Assembly (NCBI GenBank): GCA_017623575.1
Contig: JAGAOS010000038.1
Span: 1-33,530 of the forward strand
Source: Clostridia bacterium
GTDB lineage: Bacteria > Bacillota > Clostridia > Oscillospirales > Acutalibacteraceae
Direction of reading: 5' to 3'
DNA length: 33,530 bases
Below, in pieces: positions 1-33,202 of the stretch (position 1 is the stretch's first letter; the number at the start of each line of letters is the position of its first letter). Below the pieces are notes generated by a model. The model made no database searches. It was not told the DNA's origin and saw only the letters and a list, made by a program, of their open reading frames with translations. A program made the translations under genes and the position numbers.

Positions 1-2148
1 GACGATGCCGCATTCCGCGCAGACCTCGCCGCAATCGGGGCAGATCGCCGTCGCGCAGTCAATACAGGTATGGCAGTTTCCGCAGATCTCGCTGCAGTCG
101 GTGCAGGCCTCGCCGCAGTCGGGACAGATCCATACATGGTCGCTGCACTTGCTGCAGCTGCCGCAGATATCGGCGAAGCAGTTGGTGCAGTGTTCGCCGC
201 ACTCCTCGCAGATTATTTCGCAGTTGGAGCAGGAATAGCAGTTGCCACAGACATTTCCGCAATCGGAGCAGACCTCGCCGCAATCGGGGCAGATCCAGAC
301 ATGCTCCTCGCACTTGCCGCAGCCGCCGCAGACATTCTTGCAGTTATAGCAGGTGCGCTCGCATTCGGTGCAGAGCTCGGTGCAATCATTGCAGAGCTTG
401 CACTCCGCGCAGTAGTTATCCACACATTCAAAGCACTTGAAGCAATCCACACAGTAAGAGCCCTCGCCGCGCTCCGTCAGACACTCGCCGCATTCGGGGC
501 AGTGGCACTCGTTGTTTCTGGCACACTCATCGCAAAGCTTGCACTCCTCGCAGTATTCATCGCCCAGGCACTTGGCGCAGGAGTTACATTCCTGACAGTG
601 TGACGCGCCATCGCCGGTGACAAAGCAGGCTCCGCAGTCCTCGCAGGCCGCATCATTTTCCAAATGGCACACCAGGCAGGCCGAGCAGCCCTGGTCGCAG
701 GCACCGCCGCAGCTGTCGTCAAAGCATCTGAGGCACAGCTCACACAATTCTGTGTTGCTATGGCAGGCACCGCAATCCCGACAGTGGCCGCCGGTGGCAC
801 AGTCCAGGCATTTTTCACATTCGCCGCACCACTCCTCAATGCAGTTGTGACACTTGAAGCAGCCGTCGCAGTAGTCGCCGGCAAGGAACAGACAGTCTCC
901 GCAATCCTGGCAGTGGGTGCCCTCATTAAAGGCGCACTCGTGGCACTTTTCACATTCCGGGCAGTACTCAGCGCATTCGGAGCATTTGCCGCATTCTTTA
1001 CAGTAATTTCTGTCATCAAACTCTTCTATGCATCCTTCGCAGTCAGGGCAGACCTCACTGCTTCCGTGACAGTCGTAGCATTTGAAGCAGGCATAACACC
1101 ATGCAGTACATCCACTGCAATGATCGAAACATTCAGGGCATACAAATTCCTCACTGCCGCAGGTATAGCAACCTCCGCAATGCCATCCTTCATACACGCA
1201 GCAGTCTAAACACGCGTCGCAGAATTCACAAAATTCAACGCAATTGCTGCAAGAAAGACACTCCCAGCAGACATAATCTACGATAGAATAGCAATCCTGA
1301 CAATTGGGACAGTGACCGCCATCATTTATCATACATGAAATGCATGCAGCACATTCATAGCAGTATTCGGAACATTCACTGCATAGACCGCATTCAGGGC
1401 AGATATCAACGCCCATCTCACAGTTGCCGCAATCAGAGCAGTGCGAACCGTCAGATATACAGCAGTCTATGCATGCTTCATGCTCGTCGCAGATTTCAGA
1501 GCAGTTACTGCAAACTTCACCGCATGTCAGACATAAATCGTAATCAGCCCAACAGTTGCCGCATGTTTGGCAATGACTACCACAATCGGTTGCACATATG
1601 TAACACAAATAGCAGTTTTCACAGTATCCGTATTCCTGGCAATTTACGCACAACATGCAGTTTTCGCAGAATTCATCATCGTAAATGCAACCTATGCCAC
1701 AGCTTTCGCAGTGTGTTCCATCGTCATATGCACATTCCGCACACATCTCATGGGCTTCACAATAATCCACGCAATCGGCGCACCTTCCGCACAGTTCACA
1801 GATCGTTACATCAGCTTCGCACTGTTCACATTCGCTGCAGTGATAACCGCATGAGACAGCGCAATCATAACATATGTTGCCGCACCCATCGCACAGTTCT
1901 TCCGGGTCGTCCACGCACTCGCCGCAGTCGGCGCAGTGGTGTTCCTCGTAGCAGGATCGACCGCTGTCTTCGCTGCAGTGGGAGCCGCCACTGCAGATGT
2001 AATCATCGCCGCAGCCCTCACCACAGTATTCACATTCCACATACTCGTCCCATGCGTGAACGTGGAGCGACGTTGTCGGAACTAAGCCGAAGATCATCGC
2101 AAGTGTTAGCATTATGCTTAAAATTTTTCTTAATGCTTTATGCTTCAT
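1..2148 (-). CDS. Secreted giant cysteine-rich repeat protein (partial, open at left edge)
   Basis: I do not recognise a named family. The minus strand reads without a stop for 716 codons from an ATG at 2148, preceded by a strong AAGGAGG site 8 nt away. Residues 1-32 are a Sec signal peptide (two Lys, an Arg, a Leu/Ile/Met core, ending HVHA). The rest is about a quarter cysteine (about 170 Cys), nearly all in CxxC steps, with Asp, Glu and Gly between. A GxHC motif recurs with its Cys at residues 58, 104, 147, 193, 237, 280, 324, 413 and 456 (a variant at 367), giving a 43-46 residue unit. Within a unit the Cys are separated by 2, 2, 6-8, 2, 2, 2-3, 2, 3, 2, 2 and 2 residues. Beyond residue 456 the period breaks, and a 55-residue repeat (HVWICPDCGE at 616 and 671) appears. 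It lies 34 nt downstream of a dockerin gene, probably in one operon. Extracellular metal binding or disulfide-rich wall material are inferences. Confidence 0.9.
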   Translation of the reverse strand, partial: MKHKALRKILSIMLTLAMIFGLVPTTSLHVHAWDEYVECEYCGEGCGDDYICSGGSHCSEDSGRSCYEEHHCADCGECVDDPEELCDGCGNICYDCAVSCGYHCSECEQCEADVTICELCGRCADCVDYCEAHEMCAECAYDDGTHCESCGIGCIYDDEFCENCMLCVNCQEYGYCENCYLCYICATDCGSHCQTCGNCWADYDLCLTCGEVCSNCSEICDEHEACIDCCISDGSHCSDCGNCEMGVDICPECGLCSECSEYCYECAACISCMINDGGHCPNCQDCYSIVDYVCWECLSCSNCVEFCEFCDACLDCCVYEGWHCGGCYTCGSEEFVCPECFDHCSGCTAWCYACFKCYDCHGSSEVCPDCEGCIEEFDDRNYCKECGKCSECAEYCPECEKCHECAFNEGTHCQDCGDCLFLAGDYCDGCFKCHNCIEEWCGECEKCLDCATGGHCRDCGACHSNTELCELCLRCFDDSCGGACDQGCSACLVCHLENDAACEDCGACFVTGDGASHCQECNSCAKCLGDEYCEECKLCDECARNNECHCPECGECLTERGEGSYCVDCFKCFECVDNYCAECKLCNDCTELCTECERTCYNCKNVCGGCGKCEEHVWICPDCGEVCSDCGNVCGNCYSCSNCEIICEECGEHCTNCFADICGSCSKCSDHVWICPDCGEACTDCSEICGNCHTCIDCATAICPDCGEVCAECGIV

Positions 2149-2182
2149 TTGTTATTCCTCCTTGTTTTTAAAGCTGAGTCTT

Positions 2183-5062
2183 TTAGTGTAGCTCTATTCC
2201 TTGCCATCCCGCAACAAACTGTGAAAGATGAACAACATCTGTTAAATCTACCGAGCCGACGCCGTTGGTATTGAGCGCCGCCTCATTACAAGTTATCTGC
2301 CATCCCGCAACGAACTGCGAAAGGGTAACAACATCAACCAAATCAACCTCGCCGTCATCATTCACATCGCCGGGGGTATAGGCGCTAATTTTGGTTAGGG
2401 TTATGTTATGAATAACGTTTTCGCTGACGGTTAGGGTTGCTTCATAGGTTTTGTGATTATTTTTAGTTGCTACAAGACGGTAGGTACCGTCTTTAACATT
2501 GCCTATATAATAGTTTGCATTATTGCCTTTAACGGTGGTTTCATAGGCTAAATCGTTACTGTTTTGTTTATAAAGACGTATTGTTATATCATCGGTAGAA
2601 CTGCCGCCGCTTGTAATTTGACCGCTTACAAACAAACTGCTTTCGGGAGCGGCTGCGCCTTCTGTAAAGGTGTAGTAGATATATACTACATTACTGTTTG
2701 CATAAACGGCATCCCAATCCAGTCTTTCGGTTACCTGTTTGCCGTTGATATATGCCGTAACGGGCGATACAAACTTACACATATTTGCACCGTCAACCTT
2801 TTGGGGGATTATTTTAATTTCCAGTTTATACTGTTTGCCCTGAACAAAGGTTTCGTCTGACATCATAGGAGCACCGTCGGCGTTATACCATATAACACCC
2901 TTTTCGCCGTAGCTCTCATCGGGCATATAGTAATCAGAATGTACGGCAGTTAAATCATAGTCGGGAGTATTACCCGCTTTGGGTATGTCTATGTCTTTAA
3001 GCATAATCAGCGATGTATTTACAGGATTACAGGTAAAATTACTGCTGATAGTTTGTTTATAAAGACCTTCGTTTGTGGTTGTGTTGCCCTCGGCTATATT
3101 TCCGTTTACGGTTGCGTTAAACAGCATATCATAATACTTATCGTGCCAGAAGGTAACGCCCTTTTCGGTTATGAGGTATATGCGAACCTGATACTCGTGA
3201 CCGGGAATAAAGGTTTCGTTTTCATATACCCAATCAAAGTCGGTCATATCAAACCAGCCCATACCGTTTTTAATGTAATAATATTTTGTACCGGCGTTTA
3301 CGCCAACATACTCTTCATAATATTCAGATTTATCAAAATCCAGATAATAACCGTTACCTCGCAGACTGCAGGTATAACGGGGTTTTTCACCTGGAACGGG
3401 AGCATAAACATCCTCAATAACAACATTTTCTATAACGCTGTCATTACACTCACCAAAACTGTATTCCACAGTAATATAGTTTGATGGGTCTTGGTCATAT
3501 GCCTTTTTAACCTTGGCGGAATTGCCGTTTACGGTTGCCGTTACATACGGGTCAAGATTATCATCCAACAAAAACTCATAGCCATTAGCGGTTTTAATAT
3601 CCACATAAAGCTTGTAATAATAGCCCGACATAAAGGTGTGATTACCGTTAATCTCCCACCAATCATAACCGTCAGAGGACATATACCACTTGCGGTAATC
3701 GGTGTAGTTACTGCTGCCGCCCACGGCATAGTAGGTGTTGTTACCGCAAGCAACGGTATAGGAGGGCTTGCTACCTTCTTTAGGTGCGGTAACGGTAAGC
3801 TCTACGGTAGGAACTGTGGCAGGGCATATGCCAAAATCCACGGCAAGACATAGCGCCTTAGCCGAATCATTGCCTACCGTTGTAACGGTTGCCTTTTTGC
3901 CGTTTATTGTAGCCGAGGTAAGGGGAGATTCAAAGCTTCCGTAATCCTCTGCATTAATGTAAATTTCCACCCTGTAGGATTTACCCGCAGTAAAAGCGCC
4001 GCTATTTATATACTCATCATCCTCATACCAATGGACGGTATGCTTATAGCAACCGTCGGGTATGTTATAAACCTCATTATCAATAGAAATCCCCGCAACG
4101 GGAGAATTAATGGCTATATCCAGTTTGTCTATCATTCTGAATATCTCAACCAGTTTATCGGAATCCACATACTCCTGAGAATATTCCGACTGAGGATTAA
4201 ACCAATATCCGTTGGTAAAGGGGGTATAAACATCTTTATCCATATAGTTGGCAAGGGGGGTGCTGTCGGTTGGCAGCTTTATGCCAAAGAAGGTTCCGCC
4301 CTTTAAATCAACCTCGGCATCCTTGCAAATGGTAAGACCGTATGTGTTGTTATTGTAGCTTCCGCTTAAATCGTTGGAATAAAATTCTCCGCCAAATATT
4401 TCTGCCTTACCGTTTAAAAGAAGCACCGCATCTATATCTCTGCCGCCATATAATGCGCTTTCGCCAATAAGACTGCCGTCATAAACATAAAGCTCACCGT
4501 ATTCCTGCCAAATAGCTCTACCGTAAACGGCGGTGTTATAGCTGCCTTTTAATGTGGCGTTATGTATATAAACATTACCGCCCACATTGGAAATAACCGC
4601 ATTTCTGGCGCTGCTGCAGGAGGCTTTATAGGTAAGAGAGCCGGGACCGTAGATTCTTAAAGCGGCATAAGGATAGGTGTTATATAAAAGGGCATCAAAA
4701 TCGCAATAGCCATCATTTGTGTCGGGAGCGGTAAAAACAGAATGGCCTGTTAAATACAAGGTTTTAAAGCCTCTAACCAAAATGGCGGCGGGTAATAGCT
4801 TGTCGCCCTCCACCAATGGTATTACTTCATCACAGTTACCAAGCGCAACATAGGGCATCCATTCGTTTTCCATAGCGGCCTTGAATTCGGCAAAGGAGTT
4901 GCATATGGCAGGATTATCTGCGCTTTTACCCACTCCCTCAGGGAATTGTACGGCGGCACTGCTAACCTCCGTTGATTCTTCTGCAAGAACATTAAATGAT
5001 GATATGGGTATTGTCAAGGTAAGCATCAACAATGCAAGCAACAGTGACAATATTTTTTTCAT
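2183..5062 (-). CDS. Secreted dockerin protein with beta-helix-like region and four Ig-like repeats
   Basis: A 959-residue secreted protein. I chose the ATG at 5062 because AGGAGAGGG lies just before it; an upstream in-frame TTG at 5083 would place that site inside the gene. Residues 1-29 are a signal peptide. About 85-260 is rich in short strands and Gly/Asn turns, like a right-handed beta-helix. About 320-800 holds four loosely similar modules of roughly 110 residues, each with a P-x-x-G-x-x-P-x-Y start, a W, an F-x-x-G-x-x-Y and an NG near the end. A CarboxypepD_reg-like beta-sandwich follows (about 815-890). A C-terminal type I dockerin starts at DVNDDGEVDLVD; its second Ca loop (NTNGVGSVDLTD) is degenerate. 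No catalytic motif is visible, so adhesion, scaffolding or substrate binding is likelier than hydrolysis. It is first in a probable operon with the Cys-rich protein. Confidence 0.88.
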   Translation of the reverse strand: MKKILSLLLALLMLTLTIPISSFNVLAEESTEVSSAAVQFPEGVGKSADNPAICNSFAEFKAAMENEWMPYVALGNCDEVIPLVEGDKLLPAAILVRGFKTLYLTGHSVFTAPDTNDGYCDFDALLYNTYPYAALRIYGPGSLTYKASCSSARNAVISNVGGNVYIHNATLKGSYNTAVYGRAIWQEYGELYVYDGSLIGESALYGGRDIDAVLLLNGKAEIFGGEFYSNDLSGSYNNNTYGLTICKDAEVDLKGGTFFGIKLPTDSTPLANYMDKDVYTPFTNGYWFNPQSEYSQEYVDSDKLVEIFRMIDKLDIAINSPVAGISIDNEVYNIPDGCYKHTVHWYEDDEYINSGAFTAGKSYRVEIYINAEDYGSFESPLTSATINGKKATVTTVGNDSAKALCLAVDFGICPATVPTVELTVTAPKEGSKPSYTVACGNNTYYAVGGSSNYTDYRKWYMSSDGYDWWEINGNHTFMSGYYYKLYVDIKTANGYEFLLDDNLDPYVTATVNGNSAKVKKAYDQDPSNYITVEYSFGECNDSVIENVVIEDVYAPVPGEKPRYTCSLRGNGYYLDFDKSEYYEEYVGVNAGTKYYYIKNGMGWFDMTDFDWVYENETFIPGHEYQVRIYLITEKGVTFWHDKYYDMLFNATVNGNIAEGNTTTNEGLYKQTISSNFTCNPVNTSLIMLKDIDIPKAGNTPDYDLTAVHSDYYMPDESYGEKGVIWYNADGAPMMSDETFVQGKQYKLEIKIIPQKVDGANMCKFVSPVTAYINGKQVTERLDWDAVYANSNVVYIYYTFTEGAAAPESSLFVSGQITSGGSSTDDITIRLYKQNSNDLAYETTVKGNNANYYIGNVKDGTYRLVATKNNHKTYEATLTVSENVIHNITLTKISAYTPGDVNDDGEVDLVDVVTLSQFVAGWQITCNEAALNTNGVGSVDLTDVVHLSQFVAGWQGIELH

Positions 5063-5118
5063 AATACCCTCTCCTTTGGTCAAACGGATTCAGGTGCAAT
5101 CCGGATTCTTTATATAAT

Positions 5119-5147
5119 ATTATATATTATATAAAAATCCTTGTCCC
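5119..5147 (-). promoter_or_regulatory. Promoter of the dockerin/Cys-rich operon
   Basis: On the minus strand GGGACA (5147-5142) is followed by a 17-nt spacer and TATAAT (5124-5119). A second TATAAT is at 5131-5126. The 5' leader would be about 50 nt. A GTGTGGG box overlaps and extends upstream of the -35. Confidence 0.55.
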
Positions 5148-5218
5148 CACACTTTTTTAAAATATAGGTATGGGATTTTAGGTTTTTTATAAAAAAGTGT
5201 GGGAAAAAGTGTGGGAAA
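5146..5218. promoter_or_regulatory. GTGTGGG boxes: inverted plus tandem repeats between divergent genes
   Basis: CCCACACTTTTTTA (5146-5159) and TAAAAAAGTGTGGG (5190-5203) form an exact 14-bp inverted repeat with a 30-nt loop. The right arm is part of a tandem 12-bp direct repeat, AAGTGTGGGAAA, at 5195-5206 and 5207-5218. There are thus three copies of GTGTGGG between the dockerin operon and the LuxR-type regulator gene. The left box abuts the minus-strand -35, and the right pair lies 35 nt before the plus-strand -35. An operator for the adjacent regulator is the simplest reading. Confidence 0.6.
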
Positions 5219-5253
5219 GCATTTGGAATTGAATAAATTAATTGATATTTATG

Positions 5254-5282
5254 TTGCCCGCGAAAAAATTTTATGGTATAAT
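5254..5282 (+). promoter_or_regulatory. Promoter of the LuxR-type regulator gene
   Basis: TTGCCC (5254-5259), 17-nt spacer, TATAAT (5277-5282), about 28 nt before the ATG. Confidence 0.6.
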
Positions 5283-5310
5283 TAAAAAAAATCGATATTG
5301 GGAGATAGAT

Positions 5311-6360
5311 ATGAAAAAATTATCTGCCTTTTTTATGGTAATTACTCTTTTGTTGCTTTGCCTTTCGGGGTGTAGCGGCATTGGTGATAAAAACGCCAGT
5401 CTTTCAGTGGTGTATGCAATTATGGCGGTGCTTTCTTTATTTCCGCTAATAGGATATTGCATTTTTATAAAGAAAAAAGACCCGTGGTTTTTTGTTTTAT
5501 TTTCGGGTGTTTTGGTGGTGAATGTAGGGTATTTTTGCCTTTCGGTTTCATCAAGTCTGGAAGAGGCTCTGCTTGCCAACCGAATATCTTATTTAGGTTC
5601 GGTTATTTTGCCCCTGTCAATGCTGCTTATAATACTGCGTGCGACGGGACTAAAATATAAAAAAGCTCTTCCAATTTGCCTTATAGTTCTTGCCTCTATA
5701 GTGTTTTTTATAGCGGCAAGCCCCGGTTATTCCACAATTTATTATAAAAGTGCCGAGCTTATATTTATAAACGGTGTAGCAGTGCTTCAAAAACAGTATG
5801 GACCGCTTCACATCCTTTACCTTTTTTATCTGCTTGGGTATTTTGCCGCTATGATAGCTGCTGTAATTCAGGCGGCAATTAAAAAAAGAATGGAAAGCGC
5901 CCTGCAGACCTTCTTTTTAATTGCTTCGGTTTATGTTAATCTTGGAATATGGCTTATTGAACAGCTTGTTAAAATTGATTTTGAATTTCTTTCTATATCC
6001 TATTTTATAAGCGAGCTGTTTTTAATAGGACTTTATTTACTGATTGAGCAGAATTCAAGGCAGAGCCTTCCGCTTCCGTCCAATTCGTCAGATGCGAAAA
6101 CGGTTTTTGTTCCAAAAGAAGAAATGGTAGCCAAAGAATATAATTCGGAGCTTTTTTCACTTGGTCTTACAAAGCTCACCCGTACCGAAAGGATAATTTA
6201 TAGCCTGTATGTTGAGGGCAAATCCACAAAAGAGATTATGTGCGACCTTAATATAACCGAAAATACACTTAAATATCACAATAAAAACATTTACGGTAAG
6301 CTTGGGGTGTCATCACGAAAAGAGCTTTTGGAAGTAGCGGCTATTTTAAATAACAAATAA
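5311..6360 (+). CDS. Membrane-bound LuxR-family transcriptional regulator
   Basis: A 349-residue one-component regulator. I chose the ATG at 5311, which has GGGAG a few nt upstream; an in-frame TTG at 5242 lies upstream of the promoter -10. The N-terminus is a hydrophobic leader with a possible lipobox (LSGC, Cys21). About seven hydrophobic segments follow up to about residue 250, resembling the 7TM sensor region (HisKA_7TM type) found on some histidine kinases. The last 65 residues are a GerE/LuxR helix-turn-helix: LTRTERIIYSLYVEGKSTKE, then a recognition helix ending TLKYHNKNIYGKLG. There is no kinase or receiver domain, so the sensor appears joined straight to the DNA-binding domain. It is divergent from the dockerin/Cys-rich operon and shares GTGTGGG boxes with it, so it probably regulates that operon and itself. 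Confidence 0.85.
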   Translation: MKKLSAFFMVITLLLLCLSGCSGIGDKNASLSVVYAIMAVLSLFPLIGYCIFIKKKDPWFFVLFSGVLVVNVGYFCLSVSSSLEEALLANRISYLGSVILPLSMLLIILRATGLKYKKALPICLIVLASIVFFIAASPGYSTIYYKSAELIFINGVAVLQKQYGPLHILYLFYLLGYFAAMIAAVIQAAIKKRMESALQTFFLIASVYVNLGIWLIEQLVKIDFEFLSISYFISELFLIGLYLLIEQNSRQSLPLPSNSSDAKTVFVPKEEMVAKEYNSELFSLGLTKLTRTERIIYSLYVEGKSTKEIMCDLNITENTLKYHNKNIYGKLGVSSRKELLEVAAILNNK

Positions 6361-6406
6361 AACAAGCTAAAATTATAGCATTAATAAAAATATTTATAAA
6401 CACAAA

Positions 6407-6445
6407 AACCGTAACAGAAGCATTGTTTTTGCCTCTGTTACGGTT
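6407..6445. terminator. Bidirectional terminator between convergent genes
   Basis: AACCGTAACAGA (6407-6418) pairs exactly with TCTGTTACGGTT (6434-6445). It is flanked by A-rich sequence on the left and T-rich sequence on the right, so it can serve the regulator gene and the GH13 gene. Confidence 0.8.
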
Positions 6446-6500
6446 GCTTTTATTTATTCTTTTATATTTAAAATAGTTTAGTTTTTTAAACAGCGCGTTG

Positions 6501-8363
6501 CTATAATTTATTAACTAAAAGCGAAATTCCTTCGCCCATAATTGTAATGGTATTTTCATATGGGGAATCACCAAAAACGGTAGTATAGGTAGATAAATCA
6601 ATATCAAGGGTTATTTTTTCAGCTACATTCCAACGGTTTATGCCTATTATTGCCGAGCTTTTTTCGTCAAAGCGTCTGAACACAACATAACCAAGCCCCA
6701 CCGCTAAAAATTCCAGATTACCCTCTTTAAATGCGGTACAGTTTTTTCTTACAGCACCAAGCTTTTTATAAAAATCAACAAGCTCCATATCCTCATTGCC
6801 CCAAGGGTAGGTGCCGCGGCAGAATGGGTCGCCATATCCCGTAAGTCCTGCCTCATCCCCATAATAAAGAGAGGGCAGACCCACCAGGGTATACTGCAGG
6901 GTTGCCGCTAGTTTAAGCAGTTTTTTGCCATTTTGATATTGTTCGGGAGTAAGGTGCTGACTTGATTGCCAATCCCTTTTTCGGTCGCCCTGAGGCTCAC
7001 CCGCAAGTCTGGTTAAAATTCGGGCGGTATCGTGGGTGCCTATATGATTCATTAAATTATGAAGTGACTGGGGTGGGTAATTTTCCATAACGGTCATTAC
7101 GGCTTCGGCAAAATTCTTGCCCTCTCCACCGCTTACAAAATCAACAATGGCATTTGCAAAGGGATAATTCATAACGCTGTCAAGCTGTTTGCCGCGCAAA
7201 AATCTGCGGCGTTTTCCATAGCTTATTTTGTTGGTGGCATCCTCCCATACCTCACCTAAAAGGTATCCGTCGGGATTTTCTGCCTTTACAGCAAGCCGCA
7301 CCTTATCTAAAAATGCATCGGGCAGTTCGTCGGCTACATCCAGCCTGAAGCCTGCGGCGCCGCGGCGCATCCAATAGCGGATAACACCGTTTTCACCTGT
7401 AATAAATTCGGTAAAGGCAGGGTCATCCTCATATACCTCAGGCAGAGATTTAACCCCCCACCAGCAATGATAATCATCATTATACTTTTTGAATTTATAC
7501 CAAGAGTAATATTTACTATCCTTACTGTTATATGCGCCGACCTCATCATAGCGGTTTTTGGCATTAAAATAAATGCTGTCATCACCTGTATGGGAGAAAA
7601 CTCCGTCTAAAATAATATCAATGCCGTATTCCTTTGCAGATTTGCAAAGACTTATAAAGTCCTCCTCACTGCCAAGCAGGGGGTCGATTTTAAAGTAGTC
7701 GGCGGTGTTGTAGCGGTGGTTTGAATGGGCTTCAAAAATGGGATTTAAATAAATCATAGTAACCCCAAGGGATGCTATATATTCAAGCTTTTGCTCAATG
7801 CCCTTTAAATTACCGCAAAAATAATCGTTACCCAAGCATTTAAAGGTGTTATTCTGAGTATATTCGGGTGTTCCGCCCCAATCGTTTCTTATATATCTGT
7901 CCTTTGGGTAGGGCAGATTATTTTTGCCCCTTGCAAATCGGTCAGGGAAAATTTGATAAATAATTCCACCGCGGGTATGAGTTGGGGTTTTAAAGCCTTT
8001 TTCATAAACGGTAAGCTGAAAATCTTTGCCCGACTTAGGCTCGAAATCTCCAAAGCCATCACCTATGCAGTGAAGCTTGCGTTCACCCTCCACAGTGTAC
8101 ATAATAAAATGGTAAAAATAAAGACCCTCCTCTAAAGAAACCTCGGTGCTGCGGGTGTAAAAATTACCCTCTAAATTATTGCAGTCGTCGGTCATCTCAA
8201 AGGAAAGCTCTTTTTCATTATCCTTATTAAAAACGGCGACCACGCCCTTAACATATCCGTCACGGGGCAGAAGCACACTAAGCTTAAAGCTTTTATGTGC
8301 TTCCACACTGCCGAAGATAGACTTATAAAAAGTATCTCTGGAATTGTAGGGCATGGTACGCAT
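6501..8363 (-). CDS. GH13 alpha-amylase family enzyme (neopullulanase/maltodextrin glucosidase type), intracellular
   Basis: A 620-residue alpha-glucan hydrolase. I chose the ATG at 8363 because GGTGAT, matching the anti-SD tail, lies just upstream; an in-frame TTG at 8375 overlaps that site. There is no signal peptide. Residues 1-130 form an N-terminal beta-domain as in neopullulanase and cyclomaltodextrinase relatives. The (beta/alpha)8 barrel starts near GGIIYQIFPDRF. GH13 conserved regions are intact: DGVFSHTG (near 253), GFRLDVAD with the nucleophile Asp at about 342, GEVWE with the acid/base Glu at about 371, and NHIGTHDT with the stabilising Asp at about 445. It sits 18 nt downstream of glgP, so it probably debranches or shortens glycogen or maltodextrins for the phosphorylase. 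The exact bond specificity cannot be read from the sequence. Confidence 0.92.
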   Translation of the reverse strand: MRTMPYNSRDTFYKSIFGSVEAHKSFKLSVLLPRDGYVKGVVAVFNKDNEKELSFEMTDDCNNLEGNFYTRSTEVSLEEGLYFYHFIMYTVEGERKLHCIGDGFGDFEPKSGKDFQLTVYEKGFKTPTHTRGGIIYQIFPDRFARGKNNLPYPKDRYIRNDWGGTPEYTQNNTFKCLGNDYFCGNLKGIEQKLEYIASLGVTMIYLNPIFEAHSNHRYNTADYFKIDPLLGSEEDFISLCKSAKEYGIDIILDGVFSHTGDDSIYFNAKNRYDEVGAYNSKDSKYYSWYKFKKYNDDYHCWWGVKSLPEVYEDDPAFTEFITGENGVIRYWMRRGAAGFRLDVADELPDAFLDKVRLAVKAENPDGYLLGEVWEDATNKISYGKRRRFLRGKQLDSVMNYPFANAIVDFVSGGEGKNFAEAVMTVMENYPPQSLHNLMNHIGTHDTARILTRLAGEPQGDRKRDWQSSQHLTPEQYQNGKKLLKLAATLQYTLVGLPSLYYGDEAGLTGYGDPFCRGTYPWGNEDMELVDFYKKLGAVRKNCTAFKEGNLEFLAVGLGYVVFRRFDEKSSAIIGINRWNVAEKITLDIDLSTYTTVFGDSPYENTITIMGEGISLLVNKL

Positions 8364-8381
8364 TTTAATCACCAAAAAATA

Positions 8382-10781
8382 TTAGTCTTTTAAGGGTTTG
8401 GCATCCCAGATATTTTTTGCATAATCGTCAATGGAGCGGTCGGATGCAAAAATACCCGATGATGCAATATTCATAAGGGACATACGGTTCCATACATCCT
8501 TATCGTTATAAAGGGAAGAAACTGTATTCTGTGCGCGGGTGTAGTCGGCAAAATCGGCAAGAGCCATATAGGTATCGTTGTTTTTAATGTGTTCGGTAAC
8601 AACCTTGAAATCGGTGCCCAACCCTGAACCTAAGAAGTCTAAAACCTCACGAATAATGGGATTATTATTGTAATAATCATAAGGGTGGTAGCCAGCCTTT
8701 TTAAGGCGGTTTACCTCGGGGGTTTCCATACCAAAGATAATGATGTTATCATCACCAACGGCCTTGTGGATTTCTACATTGGCGCCGTCCTCAGTGCCAA
8801 GTGTTACAGCGCCGTTCATCATAAGCTTCATATTACCGGTACCGCTTGCCTCTGTACCCGCAAGGGAGATCTGCTCACTGACATCGGCAGAGGGAATCAT
8901 AAGCTCTGCCAAAGTAACGCGATAATCCTCCATAAATACAATCTTTAATTTATCGCGAACGGCGGGGTCATTATTAACTACCTGACTTAAACAGTATATC
9001 ATATGAATGATATGTTTTGCAAGCATATATCCGGGGGCAGCCTTTGCGCCGAAAATATAGGTCTTGGGTGTAAAATCCATATTTGGGTTAGCCTTTAGGG
9101 CAAGATATTCTGCCGTAATATTCATAACATTAAGGTGCTGGCGCTTGTATTCGTGAAGGCGTTTAACCTGCATATCGAAAATGGAATCGGTATTTAATAT
9201 TATGCCGCAGTGGTCTTTCACATATTTGGCAAAACGCTCCTTATTTGCTTTTTTAATATCAAAAAGGGAGCTTAAAACCTGCTTGTCATCAGCAAAAGCC
9301 TTTAATTTTTCCAGTTGATTGGTGTCCTTTTTAAAGCCATCACCAATAAGCTCGGTAAGGTAGCCAGTAAGACCTTTGTTAGCTGAGCAGAGCCAGCGTC
9401 TGTGGGCAATACCGTTGGTAACATTTGTGAATTTTTCGGGGGTGAGTCTGTAATAATCGTTAAACAAATCATCCTTTAAAATTTCACTGTGCAGCTTTGA
9501 AACACCATTTACGCTATGGCATACCGAAACGCAGAGGTTGGCCATTTTAACCATTCCGCCCGAAATAATTGCAGTACGCTCAACATAATCAGCATCGTGG
9601 GTCTGCTCCCAAACCTTGGCGCGGTGACGGTTATCAATCTCGGTAATAATATTAAAAATACGAGGGAGTCTGCTTTTAAAAAGGTCACACTGCCAACATT
9701 CCAAGGCTTCACTCATAACGGTGTGGTTGGTGTAGGCGGCGGTTCGTGTTACAATATCAAAAGCATCATCCCAAGAGTAGCCACATTCATCTAAAAGATG
9801 GCGCATAAGCTCGGGAATAACCAAAGCGGGGTGGGTGTCATTAATATGAATAGCAGCCTTTTCGGGCAGATTATCCAATGTTCCGTAGGTGCGAAGATGA
9901 CGGCGCAAAATATCCTGAATGGATGCCGAAACAAGGAAATACTGCTGACGAAGTCTAAGAGATTTACCCTCCATATGGTGATCTTCAGGGTAAAGCACCT
10001 TGCTGATAACCTCACAGTTTGCCTGATGCTCCAGCGCGCGGGCATAGTTACCCATATTAAAATCATCCATATTAATAGATGGGGTTTCGGCACTCCAAAG
10101 TCTTAATGCATTAACCGTTTTGCCGTCATTACCTGCAACCATAAGGTCATAGGGAACTGCGTGAACTGTGGTGTAATCTTTAAGCTCAACATGGTGATAG
10201 TCGCCATCCCAACGCTCCTCAACCCAACCGTCAAACAAAACATCAACGGCGGATGTGGGGCGAGCCTCCAGCCACACGCTACCACCGGGAAGCCAGAAAT
10301 CAGGCATTTCTGTCTGCCAGCCGTCTACAAGCTTTTGACGGAAAATGCCGAACTCATACTTAATGCAATAACCCATTGCAGGGTAGGAGCCGGAGGAAAG
10401 TGAATCTAAAAAGCAGGCGGCAAGTCTGCCAAGACCGCCGTTGCCCAAGCCTGCGTCGGGCTCCAGCTCATAAAGCTGGCTGAGCTTTACGCCAAAGTCA
10501 GAAAGGGCGGTTTTCATAGTATCCTCAAGCTCTAAATTATAAAGATTATTTTTAAGGGAACGACCCATTAAAAATTCCATACTTAAATAGTAAACCATTT
10601 TTGCTTGCTTAGCCTCGGTTTCCTTACGGAAGCCGGTGCGACGCTCACGCATAATGTCTAAAAGCACCAAAACGGTTGCTTTATAAAAAAGCTCATCCGA
10701 TGCCTGCTCAGGCGAAACGCCAAAATTGTGTGAAAGGGTGGCGGCGATTCTGTTTTTGAGCTCATTAGATGTATATTTCAT
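8382..10781 (-). CDS. glgP: Glycogen/maltodextrin phosphorylase
   Basis: A 799-residue GT35 enzyme that phosphorolyses alpha-1,4-glucan to glucose 1-phosphate in the cytoplasm, with pyridoxal phosphate as cofactor. The PLP motif EASGTGNMKLMMNGA is present with the Schiff-base Lys at residue 652. Other family landmarks are YLSMEFLMGRSLKNNL near the start, GLGNGGLGRLAACFLDSL and the IHINDTHPA segment. Length is normal for the family. The ATG at 10781 follows AAAAGGAGAG; the open frame continues upstream to 10865, but that extension covers the promoter and is rejected. It is first gene of an operon with the GH13 enzyme and has its own TTGAAA/TATTAT promoter. Confidence 0.97.
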   Translation of the reverse strand: MKYTSNELKNRIAATLSHNFGVSPEQASDELFYKATVLVLLDIMRERRTGFRKETEAKQAKMVYYLSMEFLMGRSLKNNLYNLELEDTMKTALSDFGVKLSQLYELEPDAGLGNGGLGRLAACFLDSLSSGSYPAMGYCIKYEFGIFRQKLVDGWQTEMPDFWLPGGSVWLEARPTSAVDVLFDGWVEERWDGDYHHVELKDYTTVHAVPYDLMVAGNDGKTVNALRLWSAETPSINMDDFNMGNYARALEHQANCEVISKVLYPEDHHMEGKSLRLRQQYFLVSASIQDILRRHLRTYGTLDNLPEKAAIHINDTHPALVIPELMRHLLDECGYSWDDAFDIVTRTAAYTNHTVMSEALECWQCDLFKSRLPRIFNIITEIDNRHRAKVWEQTHDADYVERTAIISGGMVKMANLCVSVCHSVNGVSKLHSEILKDDLFNDYYRLTPEKFTNVTNGIAHRRWLCSANKGLTGYLTELIGDGFKKDTNQLEKLKAFADDKQVLSSLFDIKKANKERFAKYVKDHCGIILNTDSIFDMQVKRLHEYKRQHLNVMNITAEYLALKANPNMDFTPKTYIFGAKAAPGYMLAKHIIHMIYCLSQVVNNDPAVRDKLKIVFMEDYRVTLAELMIPSADVSEQISLAGTEASGTGNMKLMMNGAVTLGTEDGANVEIHKAVGDDNIIIFGMETPEVNRLKKAGYHPYDYYNNNPIIREVLDFLGSGLGTDFKVVTEHIKNNDTYMALADFADYTRAQNTVSSLYNDKDVWNRMSLMNIASSGIFASDRSIDDYAKNIWDAKPLKD

Positions 10782-17229: not shown

Positions 17230-17269
17230 AAACGGAAATCCGCCCTCTTTTGAGGGCGGATTTCCGTTT
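17230..17269. terminator. Bidirectional terminator with perfect 18-bp stem
   Basis: AAACGGAAATCCGCCCTC (17230-17247) pairs without mismatch with GAGGGCGGATTTCCGTTT (17252-17269) across a TTTT loop. It sits between convergent genes. Its right arm ends within the stop codon of the TIR gene (TAA read from 17271-17269). Confidence 0.92.
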
Positions 17270-20200
17270 TACTTTTTAGGTTCTTTTTTGATCGAAATTT
17301 TATTATCTTTATAGGTTTCTATTGCCTTTTGCATAAGCCTGTAAAAACAAAGATAATAAAATTTTTCTGCCGAGCGCAATGACTTATACTCCTTAAAGGT
17401 TATACACATCTCACCAAGATTATTCTTTGCCATATAACTAAACATATATTTGGTAGCATTAAACCTGATTATTTCCGGCGAAACATCTGTAGCGCCCTCT
17501 TCTATTTTTATGCACCTGCTGTAAAATACCTCTGTTAATTGTTCAAGGTTTTTAAGCAGCACGGGGGATGAAATGAAATTCTTATAAAGCATATCGGTGG
17601 TAGGATCGCTGTCCCGCTCTGAAAGCTCCGGAATCCAATGGGGTATTAACAACCAAAAATAATTATTTGCAATTTGTCTTTCGGTTTTATGGGCTATGCA
17701 ATACTTTACAGCATTATTCAACAGCTCAGCGTAGTTATCATCCTTACGGTGATATGCGGCATAGGCAACGGCGGCAAGACTGTATGCGGTCGCGCTTTTG
17801 GAAACATTTTTCTTACGGCTTTTTTTAATTTTGGCATATCGTTGCCGAACCGCTTCAACATACCCAAAATTGCCATTATTTATCGAATAGTTGCATATTG
17901 CCTCAAGCAAATAAAGCAACGCCATTTGACCTGTGTATGTTATTGAATTAAGGCTTGCAATTGCATCATCAATAATATCCCACAAAAACTTCATAGCTTC
18001 AGTAATATCTGCTTTAGGTTCAAAGTTTTTGCATTTAAGAAAAATTCTAATCACAAAATTCCTTAGTGTTTCATACAAATAGCGTTCGGTTTTATCAAGG
18101 GATTTAATTGCAAATTCTGCTACCATAATAATTGATTTTATACTATAGGTTTCAAAGGAGTTTAAACGCAAAATTTTTCTTGAAACAGAACTTAGTTGAA
18201 TAGAATCAGGGGCGCAGATATGCCAATGCTTGAATACCTCAATATACGCATCCAATGCCCTTTTGTGTTCGCCAAAGGTAGCGCAGGTGTCACCGTAGGA
18301 CTCAATAGCCGCTAAAATATCGCTGTGGCCCTCAGGGCGCAGATGTCGCACCACGCTAATTAACTCTCTTGCCTGTTTAATTGCTTCACGATTGCCATAT
18401 TGCATATTTATTAAAGCTGCAACCTGCAGGCTTGAAAGGGCGCGCACAGATATGTTTTCCATATCAACCTGTTCGGTAAGCTCCCACACACCTTTTTGAA
18501 TGACCGACTCTGGGAACATACGCAACGAGTTAATGGCACTCATTACGGCTGTTGAGGCGGATGTAAGGGTTGTGTTGTTGTTTACATTCATCATATGAAC
18601 ATTAACCGCAATTTCAATAATTTTGGTTGCATCCATTTTATCGCCCTCAAGGGCTTTTTCTATTTCTTTGCTTAAACCAACCAGCATTTGAACCATTGGG
18701 TCGTTGGAACCCTTTTCAATTCTTTTGTAAAGGTCATTGCTCAAATAATATCCGCGAACTGCCAATATGGGATGCAGCAACAAAAATGATAAGTTTTGAA
18801 AATTGTTGTCAAACAAATTATTTATAAATTCTTGGGCTTTTTCTATTAAATCAGATAGCTTATTGTTTTTAATAAGGGATAAGGAAAAATACATTGCTTC
18901 CAGCCATATTAACATTCCGCTTTTTTCGCCGTCTGCTTTTCGCTGATTGATATATGAATGTAGCTGTTTTTTTAATTCATTTGCTGACTTTTCGGTATTA
19001 GTAAAATATGAAATCATTAAAAACACCGAAAAATCGTCCTTATTTTCCATAGCAACAACAAAAGCTTTATCAATTATTGATAAAATTTTGCTACGGTATT
19101 CTTTAACACTGCTTATGTGAGCCATTGTTACAGAAAGGCACCGCATAACCCATTTATAATTAACCGCGTTAGAATTAAGGGTTGCTATGTATTTTTCCAG
19201 TAAATCAACACGGGTTGGATGCTGTTCAAGAACAACCATATCACCATAGGCAATTATCATAGCCTGCTCAGAGGCATTATTAATAAGCTTTGCAAGGGCG
19301 TTTACCTTTTGTGTTGTTGCAGAAGCATCACCAAGCAAATAGTCTACCGAAACAAAGCGCGACCACAATTCCTGCGAAAGATTATGGTTTCCCCCTGCCA
19401 GCACAAAACAGGCATAAAACAATCCGTCGCCAAGCGCAGTAGCATCTGCATAGGTAAGCTTTTTCATAGCAGTATCTGATTGCCTTACGAGGTATTCAAT
19501 CATTTCTGAAACAGACTGCTCTGTAGGTACCAAAAGCTTTGCCATTAAGCGAGATAAAATTGGGTGAAGATAAAGATTTTCCTCCACACCGTCATTAACA
19601 GAAACCCGCTGAAGCTCCAACCAACCATTGTTTACAAGCTCATTTATATCATTGCGATTGGTAAGCTTAAGTATATTCATTAAATCGGCAACCGAAATGG
19701 TTCCGTCAGACAAAACAGACATTGAGCGCAGAATGTGTAAACAGCCGTCACCAAAGCAATTTATTTTAAACAGCTTCTGCAAATGGCCAAAAATAGTATC
19801 ATAATCCTTGTTTTCGTTATGGCGGAAATCTATCTTTGCATCAAGGGTATCAAAGTTGTCCATTTTGCCTATAATATCGTCAATGCCCATTCCGTGAGCC
19901 TTCATCATTTTGGCAAAAATGCAAAGAGTAATTGTATGGCCGCCAACATAGTTATACAGCGTTTTAAAGGTATCCAAGGGGATGTCAGCGCCGTATATTT
20001 CGTCAAACATTATTTTGGCATTGGGCTCGTCCAATTTTTCAATAGGTACAACTGCAATTTTATCTGAATTGGCATTGATTCTGGCTCTTGTGGTAATAAG
20101 CAGGCGACATTTTAAGCGCGAAATTATCTCATGAAGATCTTCATTATCCAAAAGATTATAATTGTCAACAACAAGCAGAACCGTTTCGGGCAAATTACAA

Positions 20201-21069
20201 AGTGCTTGCAATTTCCGTTCATACTTTTCTTTTTCGGTTAATGAATTAAGGCTGTCATAAACCGATTTAACATAGCTTGCAGATGAAACAAGGGTATATA
20301 GGCCACCCCGCTCACCGCTTAATTCCTGAACATGTACAATCTGTGGGCATTTTAAATAACCCATTTGTTCAAACCGTTGGGCAATTTCTATGGCAAGGGT
20401 GGTTTTGCCCATTCCGCCCAATCCGTGAAGAACAACCACCTGCTTACCTTCTGAAAAGGCGGTAAGCACATTTTCAATTTCAGCTTCACGGCCTACGGGC
20501 TTGATATTAGTAATTTGCTGTTCACTGGAAATTTCTAATTTGGGCATCTGCGAAATTACAGGCTGCCCCGCATTACGCTTTTGTATAAATGCTTCGCAAC
20601 GGGAAGTAACCTCTTCCAAGGTTTTTTCGCTTAAAGCTCCGTTTTCATTAAGTGTACCGAATACCTGCGAAAAACCGCGGGTTGCTGAGTAAAAAAACCA
20701 ACCTACTGAATCGTTATAATCGTGAAACGGTTCAGAATAGCGAAAAAATCCCGACATACATAAAATAACAATGTTTAACTGGTTTGTGCTTTCCAGCTCG
20801 CATGCCAAATTACATTCCCGCCTTACTTCTGTAAGTCTGCCATGTTGGGTAATAAGGGGATCGTTACGCAAATTATCGGTAAGTAGCATAAGGTAAACCT
20901 TGCTTTTATCGAGGGCTTCACAAAAATCCTCGCGGAATTGCCCCTTACAATAGGCATCACTGTCATAATAAGAAAGCCCCATTTGAGCTAAGCGTTGTTT
21001 GATAGCATCCTTTAGCTCCCTATCTGCACCGGTAAAGCTTAGAAAAACATCATACAAATATTCGCTCAT
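17269..21069 (-). CDS. TIR-NB-ARC-TPR-like STAND protein (bacterial NLR-like defence candidate)
   Basis: A 1266-residue cytosolic protein with no signal peptide or membrane segment; GGAGG precedes the ATG. Residues 4-165 are a TIR domain (YDVFLSFTGADRE; Glu85 in TEVRRECNLAC is the likely NADase glutamate). Residues 190-400 are an NB-ARC-type ATPase: the P-loop GLGGMGKTT is at 216-224, Walker B VLLVVDN at 297-303, sensor LLITTRA at 323-329, and GGHTITL replaces the usual GxPLAL. A winged-helix-like part follows (about 430-530). The rest is helical, with TPR-like pairs around 900-970. In this class the repeats sense a ligand, the ATPase oligomerises, and the TIR effector consumes NAD+ to abort infection. 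It has its own promoter and a strong terminator, so it is a one-gene unit. The activity and trigger are inferred. Confidence 0.92.
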   Translation of the reverse strand: MSEYLYDVFLSFTGADRELKDAIKQRLAQMGLSYYDSDAYCKGQFREDFCEALDKSKVYLMLLTDNLRNDPLITQHGRLTEVRRECNLACELESTNQLNIVILCMSGFFRYSEPFHDYNDSVGWFFYSATRGFSQVFGTLNENGALSEKTLEEVTSRCEAFIQKRNAGQPVISQMPKLEISSEQQITNIKPVGREAEIENVLTAFSEGKQVVVLHGLGGMGKTTLAIEIAQRFEQMGYLKCPQIVHVQELSGERGGLYTLVSSASYVKSVYDSLNSLTEKEKYERKLQALCNLPETVLLVVDNYNLLDNEDLHEIISRLKCRLLITTRARINANSDKIAVVPIEKLDEPNAKIMFDEIYGADIPLDTFKTLYNYVGGHTITLCIFAKMMKAHGMGIDDIIGKMDNFDTLDAKIDFRHNENKDYDTIFGHLQKLFKINCFGDGCLHILRSMSVLSDGTISVADLMNILKLTNRNDINELVNNGWLELQRVSVNDGVEENLYLHPILSRLMAKLLVPTEQSVSEMIEYLVRQSDTAMKKLTYADATALGDGLFYACFVLAGGNHNLSQELWSRFVSVDYLLGDASATTQKVNALAKLINNASEQAMIIAYGDMVVLEQHPTRVDLLEKYIATLNSNAVNYKWVMRCLSVTMAHISSVKEYRSKILSIIDKAFVVAMENKDDFSVFLMISYFTNTEKSANELKKQLHSYINQRKADGEKSGMLIWLEAMYFSLSLIKNNKLSDLIEKAQEFINNLFDNNFQNLSFLLLHPILAVRGYYLSNDLYKRIEKGSNDPMVQMLVGLSKEIEKALEGDKMDATKIIEIAVNVHMMNVNNNTTLTSASTAVMSAINSLRMFPESVIQKGVWELTEQVDMENISVRALSSLQVAALINMQYGNREAIKQARELISVVRHLRPEGHSDILAAIESYGDTCATFGEHKRALDAYIEVFKHWHICAPDSIQLSSVSRKILRLNSFETYSIKSIIMVAEFAIKSLDKTERYLYETLRNFVIRIFLKCKNFEPKADITEAMKFLWDIIDDAIASLNSITYTGQMALLYLLEAICNYSINNGNFGYVEAVRQRYAKIKKSRKKNVSKSATAYSLAAVAYAAYHRKDDNYAELLNNAVKYCIAHKTERQIANNYFWLLIPHWIPELSERDSDPTTDMLYKNFISSPVLLKNLEQLTEVFYSRCIKIEEGATDVSPEIIRFNATKYMFSYMAKNNLGEMCITFKEYKSLRSAEKFYYLCFYRLMQKAIETYKDNKISIKKEPKK

Positions 21070-31062: not shown

Positions 31063-31119
31063 TTGCCGTAAAAATATAATAAAAAGCAATTGACGGCAAT
31101 ACAAAAGATAATATATAAT
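31063..31119 (+). promoter_or_regulatory. Promoter of the second dockerin gene, with inverted repeat at -35
   Basis: TTGACG (31090-31095), 18-nt spacer, TATAAT (31114-31119). TTGCCGT (31063-31069) and ACGGCAA (31093-31099) form an inverted repeat whose right arm overlaps the -35, so a bound protein could affect it. Confidence 0.55.
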
Positions 31120-31150
31120 TAGTACACAAATCAAAAAGGAGTATTTTAAA

Positions 31151-33202
31151 ATGCGTAAATTTTTAAGTATAGTACTTGCTGTAATGCTCATAATCTGTAT
31201 TTTCCCTATCAATGACATTAAGGTAAACGCAGTAACAGAGACTCTTACTTTAAATCAAAGTCAAACCATAACAGTTGTTGAAGAGCAAAATACTGTTTTA
31301 AAATTCACTCCTTCAAAAACGGGTTATTATTCACTTACATCATCCTCTGATAATGACCTTAACTGTACAATATATAATGGCAATGAAGAAATCGCCTATA
31401 ATGATGACGGCGGCGGGCTCAGGGATTTCTCGGTTAAAGGCAAGCTGCAGGCAGGTGTTACATATACCTTTGAGGTAGGTATATATTTTGGCGCTTGCTA
31501 TAATGCAACCGTAATACTTAAGGAAGCTACATATGTAACAGATATTAAGGTTATAAATAAGCCTGTTAATCTTACCTATTTAAAGGGATTCGTTGATGAT
31601 TATTTTTCCTATGAGGGCTTACAGCTTATGCTTACCCTCTCCAATAAAAGTGTGGTAATGTGGAATTGCGATGATAACTTTAATTGGGATATGTATGATA
31701 TGAGGATAGATACCTCTGATGCAGATGCCACAGGCAAGGCTATTATAAAAATAGATGATGCGATTTGTGAGCTTCCCCTTAACATATTAAATAAAACAAT
31801 AAAAAGCATAGAGGTTATTGATGATAATTTTGCCCCTCTGGAGGAGGGTGCACAAGGCATTTATTCATATGATGAGGATTTTAATGAAATTTTTTATTAT
31901 TCCTATAATTATGAAAAGCTTAGCTTAAAGGTGAATTACAGTGATGGAAGCTCTGATACGCTTTTATCTGTTGATGAGCCGCTTTTCGGTGTATATTATG
32001 CCTATACTTATGATAATCAGTTTGATAATGAGTGGACTGTAGGCGGCGCAAAAAACACCCTTACGGTTGAGCTTTTAAACGCCACCGCTAAATATAATGT
32101 AAAGATTGTAGAAAATCCCGTTAAAAGCATTACAATAAATACCGCCCCTACAAGACAGTATGTATACGGCGATTTAAACTATGGTGATTATTTCTACGGC
32201 GAATACTTTTTCTATCCAAACGATTTAACGGGAATTAAATTCACCGTTAATTTTAAAGACGGCAGTAAAAAAGCCTATACATATAATAATATAAATCAAA
32301 ATGAGCTTACTGTGGATGGCTATGCCTTAAATATTGAATACGATTATTTTGCATCTCCCGGTAAAATCCCCGTAACCTTAAGCTACCGCGGCTGTGAGGC
32401 AGAATATAATGTAACCTTAAAGGCATCAGGTGTATCCGGGGTTGAAATCACAAAGGCGCCAAACCTGACAAAGCTTAAAAATGATTATTTTTCGGCAGAT
32501 TTTATTGGCGCCGCATTTAAAATAACCTATACTAACGGCACAACAAAAACCGTAAATGTAACAAATTCAAACTCCAAATATATTTATGATCCTAATTTCG
32601 GTGAGGTAGGTGTGGATGTTTCGGTGGACGGTAACACCGCAAGATTTTACACCGAGTATGACTATGAATATGGTTGTACAACCACCCTTACATATATGGG
32701 GGCTTCCTGCATAAGGGAGGATTTAGTGTCTGTGGCGGATAATCCCATTAAGGATGTAAAGGTTACAAGCTTTGAATCAAACGGAAGCCTGACTGTTAAA
32801 CTAATTTTGCAGGATAATACCGAAAAAACCTTGAGCGTTGTTCCAAAAACTACAACGCGGGAGGATTACGGCGATTGTGTAGAAACAATGGCTACCGCCT
32901 CAACCGAATGGGGTGTTATTAATTATTCCTTTATTATGTATGAAAATAATATGGGATTTTTTGAACTGTCGCTTTTTGATAAATTCTTCGGTTTTAAAAA
33001 GTCTGCTCAAAAAGGCGATTTCGATTTCAACGGCAGGGTGGATTTGGTGGATGTTGTTGCACTGTCGCAATATGTAGCAGGCTGGGATATTACCTGCAGT
33101 GGCACCGAAATGAATATAAACGGCGACTCGGAAACCGACCTTTTAGATGTAGTTCACCTGTCACAGTATGTTGCAAACTGGCAGGGAATAGAGATAAAAT
33201 AA
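31151..33202 (+). CDS. Secreted dockerin protein with PPC-like and Ig-like domains
   Basis: A 683-residue secreted protein. AAAAAGGAG precedes the ATG at 31151. Residues 1-27 are a signal peptide ending VNA. Residues about 30-125 resemble a pre-peptidase C-terminal (PPC) beta domain (LKFTPSKTGYYSLTSSSDND). Residues 130-610 hold about five bacterial Ig-like modules of the Big_3 kind, each with a V-K-S-I/V-K-D-V start, a Y/F-x-D-G-S turn and a closing alternating strand (LKVNYSDGSSDTL, KFTVNFKDGSKKAYTYN). The C-terminus is a type I dockerin with two Ca loops (DFDFNGRVDLVD; NINGDSETDLLD) and the tail NWQGIEIK, closely matching the GWQGIELH tail of the first dockerin protein. No catalytic motif is visible. 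It should dock on a cohesin, but none is encoded in this window. Confidence 0.88.
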   Translation: MRKFLSIVLAVMLIICIFPINDIKVNAVTETLTLNQSQTITVVEEQNTVLKFTPSKTGYYSLTSSSDNDLNCTIYNGNEEIAYNDDGGGLRDFSVKGKLQAGVTYTFEVGIYFGACYNATVILKEATYVTDIKVINKPVNLTYLKGFVDDYFSYEGLQLMLTLSNKSVVMWNCDDNFNWDMYDMRIDTSDADATGKAIIKIDDAICELPLNILNKTIKSIEVIDDNFAPLEEGAQGIYSYDEDFNEIFYYSYNYEKLSLKVNYSDGSSDTLLSVDEPLFGVYYAYTYDNQFDNEWTVGGAKNTLTVELLNATAKYNVKIVENPVKSITINTAPTRQYVYGDLNYGDYFYGEYFFYPNDLTGIKFTVNFKDGSKKAYTYNNINQNELTVDGYALNIEYDYFASPGKIPVTLSYRGCEAEYNVTLKASGVSGVEITKAPNLTKLKNDYFSADFIGAAFKITYTNGTTKTVNVTNSNSKYIYDPNFGEVGVDVSVDGNTARFYTEYDYEYGCTTTLTYMGASCIREDLVSVADNPIKDVKVTSFESNGSLTVKLILQDNTEKTLSVVPKTTTREDYGDCVETMATASTEWGVINYSFIMYENNMGFFELSLFDKFFGFKKSAQKGDFDFNGRVDLVDVVALSQYVAGWDITCSGTEMNINGDSETDLLDVVHLSQYVANWQGIEIK

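Follow-up and report, generated by a model that had tools for sequence, protein, structure and literature searches.

An exported, cysteine-rich repeat protein family of Clostridia and the case for its folding by metal-thiolate coordination

Metallothioneins are small, cytosolic, cysteine-rich chains in which CxC is the rule. C2H2 zinc-finger arrays have CPxCG-like pairs together with two histidine ligands, while bacterial ferredoxins and polyferredoxins are recognised by the signature CxxCxxCxxxCP and the Fer4 model. The VSPs of Giardia are described as secreted and C-terminally anchored proteins with CxxC throughout, CxxCxxxCxxC modules, uncommon CxC and, in some, tandem repeats, and those with CxxCxxxCxxC are reported to bind zinc substoichiometrically (PMC2996952). 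Membrane proteins of L. lactis with the motif CX2C-X10-CX2C have been reported to bind zinc (PMC4628341), and exclusion of cysteine from exported proteins has been reported for Firmicutes and Gram-positive bacteria (PMC4628341, PMC9974433). No paper on proteins of the kind described here was found among the open-licence papers of PubMed Central.

The protein in question is encoded at one end of a clostridial DNA stretch of 33,530 nucleotides, called the window. Its gene lies at 1..2148 on the minus strand, with the ATG at 2148, a ribosome-binding site read from the sequence (AAGGAGG, 2157..2163, minus strand) 8 nt ahead of it, and a signal peptide recognised by eye (residues 1-32, MKHKALRK... 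to VHA / WDEY; 2053..2148, minus strand). The 716 residues present, which make up the first two thirds of the protein, include 171 cysteines (23.9%), and the protein is, judged by its sequence, exported. The frame is open at the window edge, which is the edge of contig C66, and the 3' part of the gene is missing; the remainder was not found elsewhere in the assembly of this genome (2.04 Mb in 82 contigs, 70% complete) and had to be supplied by relatives. One scan of genome contigs gave the two that are full length, L007 (JAFTIZ010000008.1, an Oscillospiraceae MAG from roe deer cecum; gene 1155-4493, 1112 aa) and L008 (CANBCW010000014.1, an uncultured Clostridia MAG; gene 5242-8595, 1117 aa). 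Both start similarly to the window protein and are 92% and 71% identical to it, respectively, over the shared part. The initial annotation had allowed for an interruption of the frame just past the window, and none is seen in either relative.

The window copy is a real gene, with its coding frame under purifying selection. Compared with L007 over 647 codons, the sense frame has 0 stops and a pN/pS of 0.09; of its 146 changes, 116 fall on the third base of a codon. In the comparison with relatives all five other frames contain stops; against L007, four of them have ratios of 2.3-4.6, and the antisense +1 frame has a ratio of 0.16 but 34 stops. The dN/dS of the cysteine-rich rod is 0.04-0.14 against L007 and L008 (Nei-Gojobori, where dS is not saturated), with the signal-peptide region looser at 0.30-0.55. 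Divergence along the gene is mosaic: the N half of the window copy is near L007 (dS 0.145), and the C half is near L008 (dS 0.20; to L007 it is 0.75), a pattern indicative of recombination within the repeats. Tests of codon position and of selection ruled out antisense coding, in the form of a long Ala-rich frame of 1103 aa in L008. A eukaryotic, Giardia-like origin was also ruled out, given the bacterial ribosome site, the bacterial neighbours and the dockerin-like ends.

Beyond the signal peptide, the window protein has an irregular cysteine-rich N-terminal piece (residues 39-100; 1849..2034, minus strand), nine superunits (residues 101-501; 646..1848, minus strand) and a rod of 13-14-residue CxxC modules (residues 502-716; 1..645, minus strand), which in L007 continues to about residue 962. 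The superunits are 43-47 residues long and have 11 cysteines each in the layout [G-x-H-]C-x2-C-x2-C, a loop, then usually C-x2-C-x2-C-x2-C-x3-C-x2-C-x2-C-x2-C, with the G-x-H-C opening in eight of the nine. From about residue 502, small four-cysteine modules (C-x2-C-x3-C-x2-C-x3 / C-x2-C-x2-C-x2-C-x3) take over, with a period of 27 residues in full-length L007. About ten units of 43-46 residues had been proposed initially, with anchors at residues 58, 104, 147, 193, 237, 280, 324, 367, 413 and 456. All of these residues are cysteines; however, the register changes after about residue 501 and the protein is thus not ten equal units, so that regularity holds for nine superunits and not for the start or for the short modules at the end. 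The spacing itself is as fixed as had been claimed for this secreted, quarter-cysteine protein. A gap of exactly two residues separates 104 of the 170 successive cysteine pairs, against a mean of 24 and a maximum of 43 in 1000 residue shuffles, while gaps of 0 or 1 occur three times against a shuffle mean of 75 and a minimum of 58. The eight-cysteine module C2C2C2C3C2C2C2C is present in three copies, with 0 in each of 100 shuffles. The window rod is strongly acidic (Asp+Glu 139 vs Lys+Arg 21), and the L007 rod has 245 cysteines.

Cysteine is conserved almost residue for residue. Across the nine superunit positions of three related proteins (27 superunits, cut by hand and not 27 independent cases), cysteine occupies 292 of the 297 canonical positions and histidine the other five. 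Ten of the eleven cysteine columns are invariant and the last has 22 Cys and 5 His, with nothing else, although the five swaps perhaps reflect only two events. The histidine of GxHC is present in 24 of the 27, and one superunit position has SEVC instead of GxHC in all three proteins. A 12-row alignment of two superunits has 26 invariant columns, of which 24 are Cys, one Gly and one His. L008 and the window protein diverge most in their N-terminal halves, and 86 of 91 cysteines and 11 of 14 histidines are kept there, as against 108 of 275 non-cysteine residues overall (His included). In six relatives with membrane or other anchors, 54 of 65 Cys are invariant, as are 6 of 10 His and 13 columns of other kinds. 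The replacements at variable cysteine columns in four orthologue groups (n=29) are mixed (N 5, A 4, S 4, D 3, H 3, others 10), which limits the histidine rule to the canonical superunit positions.

The statement that no named family has this repeat was borne out: Pfam returned nothing for the window protein at E<=1 and nothing within the rods of L007, L021, L022, L023 and L026, and NCBIfam gave no match for the window protein or for the rods of six relatives. A sequence search of the PDB at E<=1 returned four distinct sequences, all zinc-finger arrays, the best at E 1.8e-4; with phmmer these include Aart (E 1.8e-4, residues 555-708) and PRDM9 (E 3.1e-4, residues 612-708). A superunit profile searched against the PDB reached E 0.05 at best, among 17 weak entries with many zinc-binding proteins and one cytochrome c. 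The zinc-finger matches are taken here as matches of CxxC composition. While CPxCG-like pairs are common to both, only the CxxC halves of C2H2 arrays align with the rod, the two histidine ligands are unmatched in the alignment, and there is no Pfam zf-C2H2 at E<=1. Metallothioneins share the richness in cysteine and, on the reading of the rod given below, probably the metal-thiolate chemistry; by contrast, the rod protein is large (>700 aa), exported and aromatic-containing, and instead of CxC clusters in a small cytosolic chain it has a signal peptide and one CxC in the 675 residues of the window rod (two in L007). The ferredoxin signature CxxCxxCxxxCP occurs once in the 716 residues, with no Pfam family, Fer4 included, at E<=1.

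The closest resemblance is to the Giardia VSPs, in that the module CxxCxxxCxxC is present in an exported, CxxC-rich chain, with 17 copies in the window protein and 40 in L007. However, VSPs are reported to average 12.6 CXXC per kb (PMC2996952), as against about 45-48 per kb in the present family (104/2.1 kb, 150/3.3 kb), and the C-terminal CRGKA motif, which in VSPs follows a hydrophobic anchor, is absent from the 17 complete rod-protein 3' ends, those of the window copy and L078 being cut. VSPs are eukaryotic, and the likeness is one of kind and not of descent. Dockerin-bearing surface proteins are a further comparison, since the end of L026 scores above the Dockerin_1 cut-off, but the Cys rod has no counterpart in Pfam or NCBIfam models. 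The protein family is real, unusual and unnamed in the libraries searched, and the rod is a member of nothing tested.

The rod is N-terminal in all relatives, while the C-terminus differs. Past the end of the window, L007 and L008 add about 250 rod residues (to residue 962 and 967, respectively), followed by an Ig-like stretch and two Asp-rich dockerin loops seen by eye. Pfam was scanned for L007, L021, L022, L023 and L026, and against the Dockerin_1 (PF00404) cut-off of 22.9 bits L026 scores 40.8, L007 21.7 (just under) and L021 19.6; the other C-termini were typed by eye. Dockerin-like ends were recognised by eye in L007, L008, L025, L026, L027, L038 and L086, a membrane helix with a basic tail in L023, L036, L037 and L039, a sorting-signal-like end in L024 and wall-binding-like repeats in L077, while L021 (with an internal dockerin-like piece), L022 and L035 have ends of no clear type. 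The part present of the window's own copy has no Dockerin_1 module, and a dockerin end for that copy is inferred from its full-length relatives. Cohesin matches were obtained in 12 of 14 carrier genomes at E<=0.001, above the cut-off in 10, with three above the cut-off in the window's genome (G000) and none found in G291 or in G1028, the genome of L007. From the variety of its C-terminal anchors, the rod is a surface-displayed module.

Altogether 18 rod proteins were found in 17 genomes, two of them in the window's own. A search of 300 genomes from the window's family recovered rods in 7 at E<=1e-10. At E<=1e-12, and with the window's own genome counted each time, rods were recovered in 4 of 394 genomes from the order and in 3 of 391 from the class. 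The family search undercounts because G062, G133 and G232 of the same draw carry rods found by way of the regulator described below, and at least 10 of the 300 genomes therefore have one. Three further genomes from the window's genus yielded no rod at E<=1e-10. L027, the second rod of the window's genome, is truncated at its 5' end and shares 85% identity with the G118 rod over 262 residues, and the rod of G864, from another family outside the order, is 71% identical to that of G118 over 554 residues; from such matches rods appear to be patchy and probably exchanged between genomes. Plasmids had no match to the rod. In viral contigs, none of 44 pattern stretches encodes a relative. The bare eight-cysteine DNA pattern occurs in such contigs at no fewer than 120 loci, with an open frame in 40 of those listed (41 frames). 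The best 25 of the 41 frames by CxxC are low-complexity or repeat-derived and none is rod-like, which means that the bare pattern is non-specific.

Upstream of the window gene, and 34 nt from it, lies a gene for a secreted dockerin-like protein (2183..5083, minus strand; Dockerin_1 22.0 bits, cut-off 22.9). No terminator-like site was found between the two genes, and they are probably one operon. Divergent from them is a gene for a membrane regulator (5311..6360, plus strand) with HisKA_7TM (57.6 bits) and a GerE/LuxR helix-turn-helix (48.1 bits). This 7TM-LuxR regulator adjoins the cysteine gene in 8 of 15 loci (the window, L021, L023, L025, L026, L037, L038 and L039) and was not seen at L007, L008, L022, L024, L027, L035 or L036; the sequence ends near the gene at L007 and L027. 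Searched alone in the 300 family genomes, it was found in 32 places in 30 genomes; 26 of its flanks were examined and eight have a Cys rod, including L086, where the rod is beside a more distant regulator. Many flanks without a rod have another large secreted protein instead. Since the regulator is often beside unrelated secreted proteins, it is a general partner of surface proteins and not specific to rods. The divergent intergenic region contains an inverted and direct repeat, GTCCCCACACT..AAAAGTGTGGGA (5143..5216), which is a candidate operator or hairpin. An inverted repeat TGTCnCCACACT..AAAAGTGTGGGA is common to 15 aligned loci, in the stretch from which the 7TM-LuxR gene and its neighbour diverge; it often has additional direct copies and occurs with or without a Cys rod.

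The best explanation, with a probability of about 0.45, would be a surface-displayed metal-thiolate rod that serves mainly as a stalk or coat and is switched by the regulator. The chain would fold at the cell surface or within the wall as its CxxC pairs bind a divalent metal, most likely Zn2+; the 11 cysteines and the GxHC histidine would give 12 ligands, sufficient for each superunit to hold three sites of four ligands. The resulting rod, stiff and acidic, would be mainly a stalk or coat that resists proteases and is held in place by cohesin-dockerin binding. Metal buffering would be secondary, and the neighbouring 7TM-LuxR protein would probably sense a surface or extracellular cue and switch the operon. 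The near-invariant CxxC spacing, the GxHC histidine and the restriction of canonical swaps to histidine together make a metal-thiolate fold the most economical reading, with zinc as the probable metal. Most probably the rod works as a stalk or coat of zinc-thiolate type, comparable in kind to the Giardia VSPs. The same rod could bind metal with surface capture or detoxification as its main job. The 245 cysteines of the L007 rod, the strong negative charge and the patchy, accessory distribution agree with this. Against it, inspection by eye showed no transporter or regulator of metals beside the gene in the window or in the printed frames of its relatives, and the 7TM-LuxR regulator goes with many unrelated secreted proteins in the 26 flanks; capture as the main function is unlikely. 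Nor did inspection of the window by eye bring up any metal-related gene, which also tells against the stalk or coat reading.

The initial annotation had left metal ions and a disulfide rod side by side; the evidence leans to metal. Extracellular cysteine-rich repeats of animals and protists are often disulfide-linked, and the conservation of cysteine is by itself compatible with CxxC pairs that are oxidised after export into a stiff, cross-linked fibre. However, neither DsbA (PF01323) nor VKOR (PF07884) was found in any of 16 carrier genomes, some of them incomplete (the window's 70%, G496 71%), while controls were positive in 8 of 14 and 3 of 14, respectively. This argues against a disulfide rod, although it does not exclude other oxidants or spontaneous oxidation. 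Canonical cysteines are replaced by histidine only and never together with a second cysteine loss, the L007 host is a gut anaerobe going by its sample, and cysteine is reportedly excluded from exported Firmicutes proteins (PMC9974433, PMC4628341); a disulfide-linked fibre is improbable. The reducing gut setting of L007, the many surface thiols and the failure to find DsbA or VKOR would all suit a brush of free thiols that exchange with mucin or dietary disulfides in adhesion, or that buffer redox, but this leaves the near-invariant spacing, the conserved GxHC histidine and the Cys-to-His swaps unexplained and is somewhat less probable again. That four-cysteine sets hold [4Fe-4S] clusters in an extracellular electron-transfer wire is very improbable: runs of CxxCxxC are common and about 245 cysteines in the L007 rod would allow some 60 clusters, but the ferredoxin signature occurs only 0-3 times per protein, Fer4 has no match, and Sec-exported Fe-S proteins are rare.

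With an exported chain that is one quarter cysteine, conserved nearly cysteine for cysteine, in genomes that yielded neither of two standard enzymes of oxidative folding, it becomes testable whether metal-thiolate sites can on their own sustain an extracellular protein; short, regular repeats of this kind would be easy to express. The wider proposition can be put forward tentatively, at somewhat under even odds: a class of extracellular bacterial proteins folded wholly by metal-thiolate coordination in place of disulfide bonds or hydrophobic cores, each with as many as some 270 cysteines and perhaps tens of zinc ions, exchangeable anchors and a membrane LuxR-type sensor as the switch. If this is true, the rods would be what the CxxC coats of Giardia are among eukaryotes, and would plainly break the reported rule that Firmicutes exclude cysteine from exported proteins.

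A candidate leader RNA of 85 nt with a three-way junction was observed at L023 7517-7601 (+), L038 8600-8684 (+), L071 7107-7184 (-) and L073 6693-6772 (+), with further copies at L021 3531-3619 (-), L068 5955-6035 (+) and L079 79-168 (+). In an alignment of seven sequences that was fitted to the structure, 16 of 26 pairs are changed on both sides, as against five or fewer in slid controls. The candidate is present in 8 of the 300 family genomes and was not found in the window's genome; Rfam gave no gathering-score match overlapping it in five of its loci that were scanned, and none at gathering score in the window. Five of its ten places precede the 7TM-LuxR regulator, four are ahead of a two-gene operon for a solute-binding-like protein and another LuxR-type membrane protein, and one (G256) precedes neither type of neighbour. 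Small genes (FDSLKRAxES..., FSNGILRVFVPxGW... and others) recur beside Cys rods at L007 4487-6074, L008 8677-10166 and L036 7636-8786, and the same genes are found at L069 12292-14082, near the other LuxR-type operon. Elsewhere in the window, 17269-21069 (minus strand) is a frame of 1266 aa whose start is TIR-domain-like by eye, and 31112-33202 (plus strand) encodes a secreted protein whose dockerin-like ending, SQYVANWQGIEIK, is by eye shared with the neighbour of the cysteine gene.
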